Positions 14,817-18,392 of a DNA stretch of 53,667 nucleotides are shown here, piece after piece. Source of the stretch: Dehalococcoidia bacterium (GTDB taxonomy: Bacteria; Chloroflexota; Dehalococcoidia; Tepidiformales; Tepidiformaceae); NCBI GenBank assembly GCA_022826585.1, contig JAJDUR010000089.1, positions 1 through 53,667 on the forward strand. Direction: 5' to 3'. A program made the position numbers and the translations under genes. The notes under the pieces were generated by a model. The model made no database searches. It was not told the DNA's origin and worked only from the letters and a program-made list of their open reading frames with translations. Each line of letters begins with the position of its first letter. The first letter of the stretch is position 1.

Positions 14817-15617
14817 CTACTGGAAGCGGTGGGGCAGCGGTTCGACGCGCGGCGGCAGCGCGATCTCGTGGTCGAGCCAGATGCCGATGTTCTCCCCGGT
14901 GCGCCCGTCCGGGCCTTCCTTGAGCAGATCCACGAGAAGGCCCGCGATCTGCTCGGGACGCATCCAGCGGTCGAGGAGCTCCTGCGGGGGCGTCATGCCG
15001 AGGGCGCCGCGGATCATCTCGGAGTCGGTAGCGTCCATGCAGAGGGCATTGACGCGGACGCCGTCGGGCTCGAGCACGCGCGACCACGCCTGGGTGAAGC
15101 CGTTGATGCCCCACTTGGAGGCGTCGTACACGTCCATGCGGGTACCGCCACCGGTGTTGTAGCCGGGCGGCGGGCAGATGTGGTCCGTGGCGATGTTGAC
15201 GATGTTGCCGCCGCCCATCTCGACCATGTGGGGGGCGATGGCGCGCCCGCAGAGGAAGACGCCCCTGAGGTTGGTCCCGATGAGCGCGTCGAAGTCGTCG
15301 ATGGACTTCTCCCATGCGTCGACGGGGTAGGTGGCGCGCCAGATGCCCGCGTTGCTGACCATGGTGTGGATGCGCCCGAAGCGCTCGATAGCGGCGTCGA
15401 CGAAGGCGCGGACGTCGTCGGGCACGCTCACGTCGGCCTCGGCGGCCATGACGCTCGCCCCGCCGGCTTCGAGCTCCGCGGCGAGGTCGTGGACGGCGGG
15501 ATGGATGTCGCAGAGGGCGAGGTCGACGCCCTCGCCGGCGAGGGCGCGGGCGATACCGTTGCCGATGCCGTGGGCGGTGCCCGTGACGATGGCGGCGGTG
15601 CCTTCGAGGTCGCTCAC
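14817..15617 (-). CDS. Short-chain dehydrogenase/reductase
   Basis: 266 residues. Classical SDR layout: AIVTGTAHGIGNGIARALA gives the TGxxxGIG cofactor loop, DIHP after strand two suggests an NAD preference, SNAGIW is the NAG motif, and VYDASKWG gives the catalytic Y-x-x-x-K. The position usually held by the catalytic Ser (NIVNIAS) is NIVNIAT, i.e. a Thr, and a Pro/Gly-rich insertion (PPPGYNTGGG) lies between it and the Tyr. The substrate is unknown. The start overlaps the stop of the upstream selenoprotein gene by 4 nt (ATGA), so it is probably transcribed with that pair. Confidence 0.86.
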   Translation of the reverse strand: MSDLEGTAAIVTGTAHGIGNGIARALAGEGVDLALCDIHPAVHDLAAELEAGGASVMAAEADVSVPDDVRAFVDAAIERFGRIHTMVSNAGIWRATYPVDAWEKSIDDFDALIGTNLRGVFLCGRAIAPHMVEMGGGNIVNIATDHICPPPGYNTGGGTRMDVYDASKWGINGFTQAWSRVLEPDGVRVNALCMDATDSEMIRGALGMTPPQELLDRWMRPEQIAGLLVDLLKEGPDGRTGENIGIWLDHEIALPPRVEPLPHRFQ

Positions 15618-16660
15618 GAGGCGCTCACCGGCTCAAGGGGCCGGTAGAAGGCGTTCCCGGCCTCGGTCCACTCGTTCACGATCTTCATGAAGTCCTCACC
15701 CATGGGGTCGAGCCCGCGGATGAGCATGGTGCCGCGCCGGATGGTGAAGTCGTGGGGCGCGAGCTCACCGGCGCGGACGTAGTGGGGCTCGGCATCCTCG
15801 CCGTGGCCGCGCTGGGAGAGCCACCACGCGAGCGTGAACTCGGCTCGGGCCTCCTGCTCCGCTGCGGTGGGGAGCGTCTGCACGGCGCGTGCTTCCTTCG
15901 GCGTCATGGCCGGGCCTTCGCCACGCACCCAGGCCCGAAGCCGCGTCAGGTGCGCCTCGGAGTCGATGCCCGTCATCTCCTTGAAGTCATTGGACCCGAA
16001 AGCGACGTCGTTGGGGCGGGCGATACGGCCCTCTTCGTCGATCCAGAGGATGGTGGGCACGTTGATCATGCCGTAGAGGTCGGCCACCAGGTGCTCGGTG
16101 TCGATCAGGCTCGGATGCTGGGGCTTCGCCGCCTCGATCCACTCGCGCGCGTCCTCCGCCGAGCGCTCGATGGCGACGGTAATGACGCTGAATGCCTCGT
16201 CCTTGAGCTCCTCGTAGACGGACTGCCAGACCGGCAGGTCGTAGCGGCAGCCTCACCAGGAGGCGTAGGCGACGAGCAGGACCTTCTTGCCGCGCTGGTC
16301 GCTGAGCGAGTGCAGGGCGCCGTCGAGGTCAGGGAGGGTGAAGTCGGGCGCCTCCAGGGAGGCGAGGGCCTCGCCGCGCTCGTGGTGGGAGGCGCCGAGC
16401 GCGGCGACCGCATGCTTCGCGTCGGTGACGAGGGGACGCTGGAGGGCGCCGGCGAGAACCCCGAGGTCAAGTCCGTCGTCGCGCACCAGGGCCGACTGAT
16501 CGACAGGGACGCAGACCGTGCCGCGGCAGAGGCCCTCGGGCTGGAGATCCCAGCCGAGGGTCTCATCGAGCGCTTCGGCGGGGATGGTGGGGCGGGCGAG
16601 GTCGGCGACAGGGATCTCGTCGCTACGGCCATCGTGCAGCAGGGTCAGGGTGGCGGACAT
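15614..16660 (-). CDS. ResA-like selenoprotein, copy A (in-frame UGA read as selenocysteine)
   Basis: 348 residues if the TGA at 16255-16253 is read as Sec136. Residues 1-95 form an N-terminal domain with C45-x4-C50 (GLCRGTVCVP). Residues ~101-250 are a thioredoxin fold: APDFTLPDLDG, then VLLVAYASW-U-GCRYDLPVW, with Sec right after the conserved Trp where ResA/TlpA proteins have the first Cys of WCxxC, and C138 next in a U-G-C motif. NVPTILWIDEEGRI is the cis-Pro loop. Residues ~270-348 are a helical tail. The frame is open on both sides of the TGA, a SECIS-like hairpin follows, and paralogue B has the same TGA at the same residue. The fold predicts thiol/selenol redox chemistry. From memory it resembles the WAxxUGC (seleno)protein group. 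Confidence 0.88.
16223..16255 (-). promoter_or_regulatory. UGA codon plus bacterial SECIS-like hairpin, copy A
   Basis: After the UGA (16255-16253) and 15 nt, the RNA can form CUGCC-GGUCU-GGCAG (16237-16223): a 5-bp stem with a GGUCU loop. The E. coli fdhF SECIS presents the same GGUCU sequence in its apical region, about two nucleotides closer to the UGA. Distance and loop sequence fit recruitment of SelB by a bacterial SECIS. Confidence 0.8.
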
Positions 16661-16720
16661 GAAGCGGCTCCCGGGAACAGCAGGTGGCCGGGATTCTACG
16701 GGGAGGAGGAGGGGGGCGGT

Positions 16721-16801
16721 GGGGCGAGGGTGGGATGCGAACCCATGCGGGGTCAGCAGCGCACCCTCACGAGACGGGCTCGCTCAGCCGCCGTGGTCCC
16801 C
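16721..16801 (-). pseudogene. Decayed tRNA-Ser relic
   Basis: Read on the minus strand this stretch aligns along its length with the intact tRNA-Ser at 17904-17992: GGCTGAGCGAGCCCGTCTC matches the D-arm/anticodon part, and TGGGTTCGCATCCCACCCTC the T-arm and 3' acceptor. The anticodon stem no longer pairs (CCCGT against GGGTG), the acceptor stem keeps only about four pairs, the D-arm is shortened, and TTCGA has become TTCGC. It sits in the same place relative to copy A as the real tRNA-Ser does to copy B, so both were duplicated together and this tRNA has since decayed. Confidence 0.75.
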
Positions 16802-16810
16802 GAACGACGG

Positions 16811-17857
16811 TCATGGGCTGTCCTTGATCGGGCGGTAGAGCCACAGGGACCTGCGTTTGAGGGCGGTCTTGAGGGCGACCTTCAGGAAGGCGAAGCCCAT
16901 GGGGTTGAGTCCGCGGATGGGCATGGAGCCGCGCCTGATGGTGAGGTCGTGCGGGGCGAGATCGCCGGCGCGCACGTAGTGGCGTTCGGCATCGTCGGCA
17001 TGGCCTTGCTGGGTGAGCCACCACGCGAGCGTGAACTCGGCGCGCGCCTCCTGGTCGGCCGCGGTCGGGAGTTCCTGGTGGGCGCGGACCTCGGAGGGCG
17101 TCATGGCGGGGCCGTGACCGCGCACCCAGGCGCGCAGGCGCTTGAGGTGGCGCTCGGAGTCGATGCCCGTCATCACCTTCAGCCTGTTGGAGCCGAAGGA
17201 GACGTCGTTGGGACGGGCGATGCGGCCGTCCTCGTCGATCCAGATGACGGTGGGCACGTTGATGATGCCGTAGAGGTCGGGCAGGAGATGCTCCGTGTCG
17301 ATCAGGCTGGGATGGCTGGGCGCGGCCAGCTCGATCCAGGGGCGGGCGTCATCGGCGGAGCGGTCGATGGCAACGGTGACGACGGCGAAGCCTTCGTCCT
17401 TGAGCTCCTCGTACACCTTCTGCCAGACCGGCAGGTCATAGCGGCAGCCTCACCAGGAAGCGTAGGCGACGAGCAGCACCTTCTTGCCGCGGTGGTCGCT
17501 GAGGGAGTGCAGATTCCCTTCGAGGTCGGGGAGGGTGAAGTCGGGAGCTTCGAGCGAGGCGAGGGCCTGGCCGCGGTCGTGATGAGAGGCGCCGAGGGCG
17601 GCGACAGCGTGCCGCTCGTCGGTCACGAGGGGGCGCTCGAGCGCATCGGCGAGCGTCCGCAGGTCGAGGCCGTCCTCCCCGACGAGCACATCCTGATCAA
17701 CGGGGACGCACATGGTTCCCCTGCAGAGCCCCTCGGGCTGTAGGTCCCAGCCGAGCATGGATTCGAGCGCCTCCCGGGGGATGGTGGGCCGGGAGAGGTC
17801 GGCGACGGTGATCGTGTCGGCGCGACCGTCATGCAGGAGTGTCAGCGTGGCGGACAT
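16811..17857 (-). CDS. ResA-like selenoprotein, copy B (in-frame UGA read as selenocysteine)
   Basis: 348 residues with Sec136 encoded by TGA at 17452-17450, identical in length and Sec position to copy A. By hand alignment the first 135 residues are about 82% identical. The same features are present: GLCRGTMCVP (C45-x4-C50), APDFTLPDLEG, VAYASW-U-GCRYDLPVW, NVPTVIWIDEDGRI, and the helical tail with GLNPMG. GGAGGGG lies 5 nt before ATG 17857, and TAGAAT, shared with copy A's upstream region, is a candidate -10. The C-terminus differs from copy A and is more basic (LKTALKRRSLWLY). Standard gene callers would stop at the TGA and report two fragments. The selenocysteine machinery (selA-D) is not in this window. 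Confidence 0.88.
17420..17452 (-). promoter_or_regulatory. UGA codon plus bacterial SECIS-like hairpin, copy B
   Basis: UGA at 17452-17450, then after 15 nt the hairpin CUGCC-GGUCU-GGCAG (17434-17420), identical in stem and loop to copy A and at the same distance. The sequence between UGA and hairpin differs from copy A at one synonymous position (UAC/UAU). Beyond the hairpin the two genes diverge, so the conservation is centred on the element. Confidence 0.8.
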
Positions 17858-17903
17858 CGAGCCCCTCCGGGGGAGCAGTCGAGGCAAATTCTACGCGGCG
17901 GAG

Positions 17904-17992
<89 letters not shown>

Positions 17993-17999
17993 GCGTTCG

Positions 18000-18028
18000 A
18001 TTGTAGTGCGGGATCGCGGCCCGGCGAG
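18000..18028 (-). promoter_or_regulatory. Promoter of tRNA-Ser
   Basis: On the minus strand TACAAT (18005-18000) lies 7 nt before the tRNA 5' end; the hexamer 17 nt upstream is CTCGCC (18028-18023), a weak -35. It abuts the CIRCE promoter of the divergent FmdB gene. Confidence 0.5.
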
Positions 18029-18058
18029 TTAGCACTCGTGATCTGAGAGTGCTAGACT
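18029..18058 (+). promoter_or_regulatory. CIRCE operator (HrcA site) overlapping a promoter
   Basis: TTAGCACTC (18029-18037), 9-nt spacer, GAGTGCTAG (18047-18055): 17 of 18 arm positions match the CIRCE consensus TTAGCACTC-N9-GAGTGCTAA bound by the heat-shock repressor HrcA. The left arm overlaps a -35 (TTAGCA) and the right arm overlaps a -10 (TAGACT, 18053-18058) with 18-bp spacing, so bound HrcA would block RNA polymerase. The start codon of the FmdB gene is 37 nt past the -10. Confidence 0.88.
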
Positions 18059-18095
18059 GGCCGGGTCAGACTCCGCTCGGCCTGGACGGATCCGC

Positions 18096-18392
18096 GTGCC
18101 TACCTACGAGTACAAGTGCGATGCCTGCAAGCGCAGCTACGAGTTGCGCGAGGGGTTCGACGCGCCGAGCAGCCACCCGTGCGAGCGTTGCGAGAAGGGC
18201 ACGGCCGTCCGCGTCCTGCATGCGCCAACGGTCGTCTTCAAGGGCAGCGGCTTCTACGTGAATGACAGCCGCAAGTCCGAGAAGAGCACGAGCTCGAGCG
18301 AGAAGTCCGTAAGCCTTCCCAGCGGCGACTCCGCCAAGAGCGGTAGCGGGGGCACGAGCGCCACGTCCAGCAAGAACAGCTCGAAGGGCTAG
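18096..18392 (+). CDS. FmdB-family zinc-ribbon protein, CIRCE-controlled
   Basis: 98 residues, GTG start. The N-terminal ~45 residues are the FmdB/CxxC_CxxC_SSSS regulatory-protein zinc ribbon: MPTYEYKCDACKRSYELREG with C8-x2-C11, then C29-x2-C32 (PCERC), and FKGSGFYVNDSR at the end of the ribbon. The remaining ~45 residues are a disordered Ser/Lys/Gly-rich tail, typical of the family. The biochemical role of FmdB proteins is unknown. The promoter is overlapped by a CIRCE element, so induction on heat or protein-folding stress is likely. The gene ends 6 nt before dtd and is probably cotranscribed with it. Confidence 0.88.
   Translation: MPTYEYKCDACKRSYELREGFDAPSSHPCERCEKGTAVRVLHAPTVVFKGSGFYVNDSRKSEKSTSSSEKSVSLPSGDSAKSGSGGTSATSSKNSSKG

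Follow-up and report, generated by a model that had tools for sequence, protein, structure and literature searches.

Two adjacent genes on the minus strand of a contig from a Dehalococcoidia bacterium (GenBank assembly GCA_022826585.1, contig JAJDUR010000089.1), here called genes A and B, very probably encode selenoproteins in which UGA at codon 136 is read as selenocysteine (Sec), a reading that we put at a probability of about 0.97. The window analyzed, 53,667 nt, is one whole contig of a draft genome that totals 2.74 Mb over 127 contigs. Each gene runs through 135 codons, an in-frame TGA and 212 further codons to a TGA stop, the two genes are spaced 150 nt apart, and in each the sequence CUGCC-GGUCU-GGCAG, a candidate Sec insertion sequence (SECIS) hairpin, begins 15 nt past the TGA. 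The pattern CTGCCNGKNTGGCAG occurs at just these two places in the window, compared with 0.02 expected in shuffles. A first-pass annotation of this DNA had described two 348-residue products and an identical hairpin behind each TGA without naming the strand; its counts all hold, the observation is confirmed and its selenoprotein interpretation is supported. The evidence established from sequence comprises the gene structure, selection around the UGA, the Sec machinery, a covarying hairpin and Sec/Cys replacement among homologues. The features concerned are as follows.

16811..17857, minus strand: gene A, the upstream copy, 348 codons with TGA at codon 136 and a TGA stop
15614..16660, minus strand: gene B, the downstream copy, 348 codons with TGA at codon 136 and a TGA stop
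17450..17452, minus strand: in-frame TGA (predicted Sec136) of gene A, kept as TGA in homologues
16253..16255, minus strand: in-frame TGA (predicted Sec136) of gene B, kept as TGA in homologues
17420..17434, minus strand: SECIS hairpin of gene A, CUGCC-GGUCU-GGCAG, from stem pairing and covariation
16223..16237, minus strand: SECIS hairpin of gene B, CUGCC-GGUCU-GGCAG, from stem pairing and covariation

Coding selection, one of the marks of a bacterial selenoprotein gene, flanks the in-frame UGA. The ratio of nonsynonymous to synonymous substitution rates (dN/dS) was 0.07-0.30 on either side of the TGA in five gene pairs compared up to codon 325, and 0.12-0.30 both before and after it in the three comparisons involving gene A. 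A scan of named genomes with protein A returned 13 loci holding 18 homologues. Five Chloroflexota genomes, members of the phylum to which the taxonomy record assigns the class Dehalococcoidia, carry two tandem copies each, and eight further records, most of them under the titles Acidimicrobiia, Acidimicrobiales or Actinobacteria, carry one; the nearest relative in a named record (90% identity) comes from a metagenome-assembled genome titled Dehalococcoidia bacterium. Codon 136 is TGA in all 18 homologues, whose terminal stop is TGA in 12 and TAG in 6, and a tandem pair with TGA in both copies is present in six genomes, the source and five relatives. selA was found in 13 of the 13 genomes carrying these homologues.

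Cys at the Sec place in homologues, a further mark of such genes, appeared in a broader sample. A search of 400 genomes from the window's phylum (E <= 1e-20) gave 63 matches in 51 of them. All 14 matches that extend into the N-terminal domain (13 genomes) have TGA, as do 14 shorter matches, one of these also with TAG; the remaining 35 lack a stop, and the six inspected are C-x-x-C proteins. In the phylum to which an actinobacterial relative belongs, 396 genomes were searched (E <= 1e-30) and 19 of them gave 23 matches, with TGA in 21 and TGC (Cys) in two, L077 and L079, which read W-C-G-C at the place of codon 136. The first-pass annotation had named homologues with neither Sec nor Cys at position 136 as a refuting result, which did not occur: the homologues carry TGA there or, in two genomes, TGC; on our tree the two Cys forms require two changes. 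We searched for tRNA-Sec and selA in 20 genomes, 18 of them actinobacterial (G407, whose selA had been found in the named-record set, was omitted), together with G217 and G329, neither of which had yielded selA before. Neither marker was found in the two Cys-form genomes, all 16 actinobacterial TGA-form genomes have at least one (13 both, 2 selA only, 1 tRNA-Sec only), and G329 has tRNA-Sec only. Two matches, L090 (G649:C1:422882-423391) with two internal TAG besides TGA and G302:C473:2165-2767 with one, are probably decaying copies because of these additional stops.

The hairpin was surveyed at 66 sites, 64 with TGA and 2 with TGC; since L073 repeats L036 there are 63 TGA places, and three TGA matches of the Chloroflexota sample without a locus were left out. 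All five stem pairs form at 64 of 64 TGA sites, compared with four and three of the five at the TGC sites. When a pair within the loop is added, 348 of 348 cells are paired (six pairs in 58 distinct rows), with three of the six pairs showing changes on both sides and two stem pairs invariant. These 58 rows have a covariation score of 0.282; shuffles gave 0.079, and no slid version exceeded 0.071. As the rows are related, the shuffle counts are not probabilities. An earlier count, made on 43 rows and leaving out the loop pair, gave far weaker evidence, with one two-sided pair and a slid version scoring higher. The loop pair links two silent positions, the third bases of a Pro codon and of the Val or Gly codon that comes next, and takes all four Watson-Crick types (CG in 30 rows, GC in 19, AU in 8 and UA in 1) with zero mismatches, whereas shuffles pair in 45%. 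Together with the broken hairpin of the two Cys orthologues, whose genomes gave no selA or tRNA-Sec, this makes the group an unusually clean natural test of the bacterial SECIS. In the first set, all 20 rows encode the Leu of the stem by CTG, a codon that makes up 28-31% of Leu codons elsewhere in the genes (naive product 1.5e-11); the Gln codon CAG is less telling (0.02). Residues are unchanged in L058, L059 and L060, where TTG...CAA stands in place of CTG...CAG. At positions 1879-1920 of L080, V-P-V-W-D replaces L-P-V-W-Q and the stem reads GTCCC-GGTCT-GGGAC, so that two stem pairs are reversed along with an altered peptide and five pairs remain intact.

Both window copies also lie within the limits for bacterial SECIS elements given in the accessible part of a 2026 review (PMC13188914), with a loop of 5 nt, a stem of 5 pairs, a loop-initial G, 20 nt from UGA to loop, and hairpin energies of -8.2 and -7.7 kcal/mol relative to a limit of -7.5 kcal/mol. 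The loop had initially been equated with that of the E. coli fdhF SECIS region. The letters GGUCU are indeed shared, 18 nt past the TGA (codon 140) in fdhF versus 20 nt here, but ViennaRNA closes the fdhF loop differently although the letters agree. In addition, the window stem has no unpaired 5'-side U such as U17, described in the accessible part of PMC8659212 as a SelB-binding base; its spare U lies on the 3' side within the Trp codon, and a constraint on that U itself therefore cannot be judged.

The source genome contains the Sec machinery, the presence of which had been named at the outset as a check: selA (517.8 bits), selB (293.2 bits), selC, i.e., tRNA-Sec with anticodon tca (71.1 bits, also called as tRNA-SeC by ARAGORN), and selD (337 bits), all above their family cut-offs. 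The selD gene (L027, G000:C41:13067-14002) has an in-frame TGA of its own in the context GCGG-U-ASK and, judged by this TGA, is itself a selenoprotein gene.

Several observations weigh against the reading of UGA136 as Sec or reduce the force of the evidence for it. Open frames are weak evidence in this DNA, as a 663-amino-acid frame on the plus strand (15752-17743) spans both genes in antisense. Base composition and codon use probably account for that frame, which an automatic gene caller could pick. The bare hairpin has an energy of -7.4 in 5 of the first 20 rows, slightly short of the published limit, and the single-sequence hairpin energies of the two window copies are not above those of shuffles (z -0.58 and -1.65); for that reason we did not accept thermodynamic stability as evidence that the hairpin exists. 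When the 40 nt from the UGA onward are folded, the best prediction for both copies differs from the hairpin and uses the codons adjacent to the UGA, which would sit within the ribosome while UGA occupies the A site. No TGA form was found in the three other sampled genomes of the window's family (G146, G226 and G356), of which only G356 has selA, and one TGA-form genome, G217 (1040 contigs, 86% complete), yielded neither selA nor tRNA-Sec. Finally, selA is present in 322 of the 400 genomes of the phylum versus 23 of the 25 TGA-form genomes there; being so widespread, it says little in TGA-form Chloroflexota, and its co-occurrence within the phylum was dropped as proof. Because open frames and hairpin energy alone are weak, we place the weight on comparison, that is, on dN/dS and covariation.

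Proteins A and B are 76% identical, with divergence greatest towards the C-terminus, and have the active-site context Y-A-S-W-U-G-C in both copies. Three parts can be distinguished, the last of which resembles tetratricopeptide repeats (TPR). The confidence of predicted structures is given as the predicted local distance difference test score (pLDDT).

17558..17857, minus strand: N-terminal domain of A, residues 1-100, with C45-x4-C50; folds alone, pLDDT 91.5
16361..16660, minus strand: N-terminal domain of B, residues 1-100, with C45-x4-C50, from alignment A2
17171..17551, minus strand: ResA/TlpA-type thioredoxin domain of A, residues 103-229; Pfam AhpC-TSA 8.8e-17, PDB profile and fold matches
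15974..16354, minus strand: ResA/TlpA-type thioredoxin domain of B, residues 103-229; Pfam AhpC-TSA 2.4e-18
16943..17074, minus strand: TPR-like helices of A, residues 262-305, from PDB profile, Pfam and model helices
15746..15877, minus strand: TPR-like helices of B, residues 262-305, from alignment to A; Pfam TPR at E 0.15-0.61 only

In the predicted structure of A (mean pLDDT 84.9), residues ~99-230 have the fold of ResA/TlpA-type thioredoxins (best E 2.4e-19 by profile and 6.4e-11 by structure), and W-[Sec]-x-C aligns with W-C-x-x-C of these relatives, in agreement with the initial placement of the TGA, after the Trp of W-U-G-C, at their first Cys. The likeness to the ResA, TlpA and StoA thiol-disulfide oxidoreductases thus extends to the thioredoxin fold and the place of the first active-site residue. 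The differences are Sec with one-residue spacing (U-G-C) instead of C-x-x-C, the additional N- and C-terminal parts, and the lack of a hydrophobic anchor for export or membrane attachment in a hydropathy scan, the only test applied (highest 19-residue mean 0.97, and 0.56 within the first 60 residues). Both proteins hit the ResA equivalog-type model PRK03147.1 below its cut-off (1e-18 and 3.9e-19). Two parts had been left unnamed in the first-pass annotation. For the C-terminal tail of A a name can now be offered, since its PDB profile matches engineered TPR proteins (best 1e-8, residues 262-303), with Pfam TPR_2 at E 0.012, under its cut-off. For the N-terminal domain of A alone, a fold search of the PDB returned no hit at E <= 0.001. 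The C-x4-C of this domain is present in 20 of 20 rows of alignment A2 and 32 of 32 further long forms (a stricter pattern gave 30 of 32 because two have Ser past the second Cys), and the domain is a target for structural and biochemical work.

The first-pass annotation had also proposed kinship with the ResA-like WAxxUGC proteins, and the kind of protein is correct. NF041054 (WAxxUGC_long, 'ResA-like WAxxUGC motif-containing protein') is the best NCBIfam match of both window proteins (E 5e-79 and 5e-81) and of all 20 members of A2, but the scores of 266.2 bits for B and 272.7 for A fall below its curated whole-protein cut-off of 300. Of eight other long forms picked, seven score 305-572 and L074 scores 200.7. 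The likeness covers the N-terminal region, the thioredoxin domain and U-G-C, with a length of 348 residues compared with 354 model positions. The motif in the family name is not matched: Tyr replaces the Trp of W-A-x-x-U-G-C, as noted at the outset, with U-G-C kept, and the window group forms a separate branch of the tree. More broadly, the accessible part of a 2008 survey of ocean metagenomes lists 'Prx-like (UGC-containing)' selenoproteins (46 in its table row) under pfam00578 (PMC2398784), and that of the 2026 review includes a 'UGC-containing TlpA disulfide reductase family' (PMC13188914). The UGC motif and the pfam00578/TlpA type are shared with these families, compared by description, and the accessible parts of the two papers do not mention a tandem pair or the N-terminal domain for them. 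The main text of PMC5029168, which the review cites for the UGC TlpA family, contains neither 'UGC-containing' nor 'TlpA'. A search of the literature found no title or abstract on this tandem pair, although prior publication is still possible. Since the window proteins fall below the NF041054 cut-off and the UGC kind is already published, they are additions to a known kind of protein; the novelty lies in the genes themselves, their arrangement as a tandem pair and the clear RNA signal. Ordinary gene calling does give two frames in each gene, as predicted initially, and standard calling can split such genes despite a curated model because this group scores under the model's cut-off.

We propose that each gene would yield one 348-residue selenoprotein, with UGA136 decoded by SelB with tRNA-Sec and insertion directed by the compact hairpin from 15 nt downstream, a five-pair stem with the tip N1-G-[G/U]-N2-U in which N1 pairs with N2. 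A cytosolic selenol/thiol oxidoreductase is the most likely product, with a ResA/TlpA-type thioredoxin fold in which Sec replaces the first Cys of C-x-x-C; the Sec-Gly-Cys spacing would then allow a Sec136-Cys138 selenenylsulfide. The invariant C-x4-C of the N-terminal domain probably exchanges electrons with the Sec-Gly-Cys center, and the TPR-like tail is probably there to hold a partner. We infer the cell location, the redox direction, the partner and substrate, and the roles of the N-terminal domain and tail. This oxidoreductase role is somewhat favored, and the explanation as a whole, its conjectural parts worded as such, is likely. One tentative extension, which we think unlikely, is a Sec-dependent redox relay of new architecture in which the N-terminal domain, of unsolved fold and with its invariant C-x4-C, would be a built-in electron donor or acceptor for the Sec-Gly-Cys center and the adjacent paralogues A and B, with their different tails, would act as partners or on different clients.

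The product could instead be a peroxidase, in which Sec136 would reduce peroxides and be resolved by Cys138 or the N-terminal C-x4-C. Its best Pfam families, AhpC-TSA and Redoxin, and the filing of UGC proteins as Prx-like in the accessible part of PMC2398784 are consistent with this role, but the best solved relatives by both profile and fold are ResA/TlpA-type thiol-disulfide oxidoreductases, with whose W-C-x-x-C the W-[Sec]-x-C aligns. Pfam AhpC-TSA covers ResA/TlpA proteins too. A peroxidase therefore appears rather improbable. If UGA136 were decoded through another signal, the hairpin could be a by-product of the conserved peptide D-L-P-x-W-Q, as might be suspected from the two stem pairs that never vary and the good conservation of the peptide. 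This is very hard to reconcile with a loop pair at two third codon positions that keeps Watson-Crick pairing in all 58 distinct rows, with the same-residue swap in L058-L060, with the five pairs kept under a new peptide in L080 and with the broken stem of both Cys forms; we rejected it on the silent covariation and the compensated stem changes. Genome-wide use of UGA as a sense codon (e.g., for Trp) would account for TGA inside two genes but was rejected as having almost no chance, since TGA still serves as the stop of genes A and B and of 12 of the 18 homologues, within these genes TGA is confined to a single position, where two orthologues have Cys, and tRNA-Sec (tca) is present. Decay of the genes, or two separate genes in each, as the two called frames per gene might suggest, is just as negligible given dN/dS of 0.07-0.30 on both sides of the TGA and a TGA pair kept in six genomes.

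Genes A and B would stem from one old tandem duplication with Sec retained in both copies. A quick tree of 59 rows, in which one row is a duplicate entry, unites the 12 Chloroflexota copies in a single group (support 100), within which the six A copies are grouped (support 99) and the B copies lie around the A group on partly open forks; the simplest reading of these sequences is a single duplication that predates the split of the six genomes. On the same tree L035 (CAMBEL010000076.1), titled Bifidobacterium breve, adjoins the Acidimicrobiia record L034 and is probably a mislabelled or contaminated metagenome record.

The genes neighboring six homologue loci gave no functional clue: of ten examined, seven have Pfam families without a common theme and three have none. 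Over 15000-18200, the tRNA-Ser beside the genes is the only element to pass an Rfam gathering score, and a scan of 15400-18200 for promoters (sigma-70) and terminators found none. This tRNA-Ser (tga), at 17904-17992 just upstream of gene A, lies upstream of the pair in all five Chloroflexota relatives (L029-L033) as well, with a tRNA-Phe further off, indicating a conserved neighborhood. Between the genes, 19 of 20 bases at 16726-16745 (minus strand) match the 3' part of the tRNA-Ser, and by eye the likeness extends further in degenerate form. Because the intergenic stretches of the five relatives lack it, it seems to be a tRNA-Ser remnant copied between the genes in the source genome. Finally, GTAGAAT occurs on the minus strand about 30 nt upstream of both gene starts (16693-16699 and 17888-17894) and may be the -10 element of each copy; all five relatives have GTAGAATCC between the paired genes.

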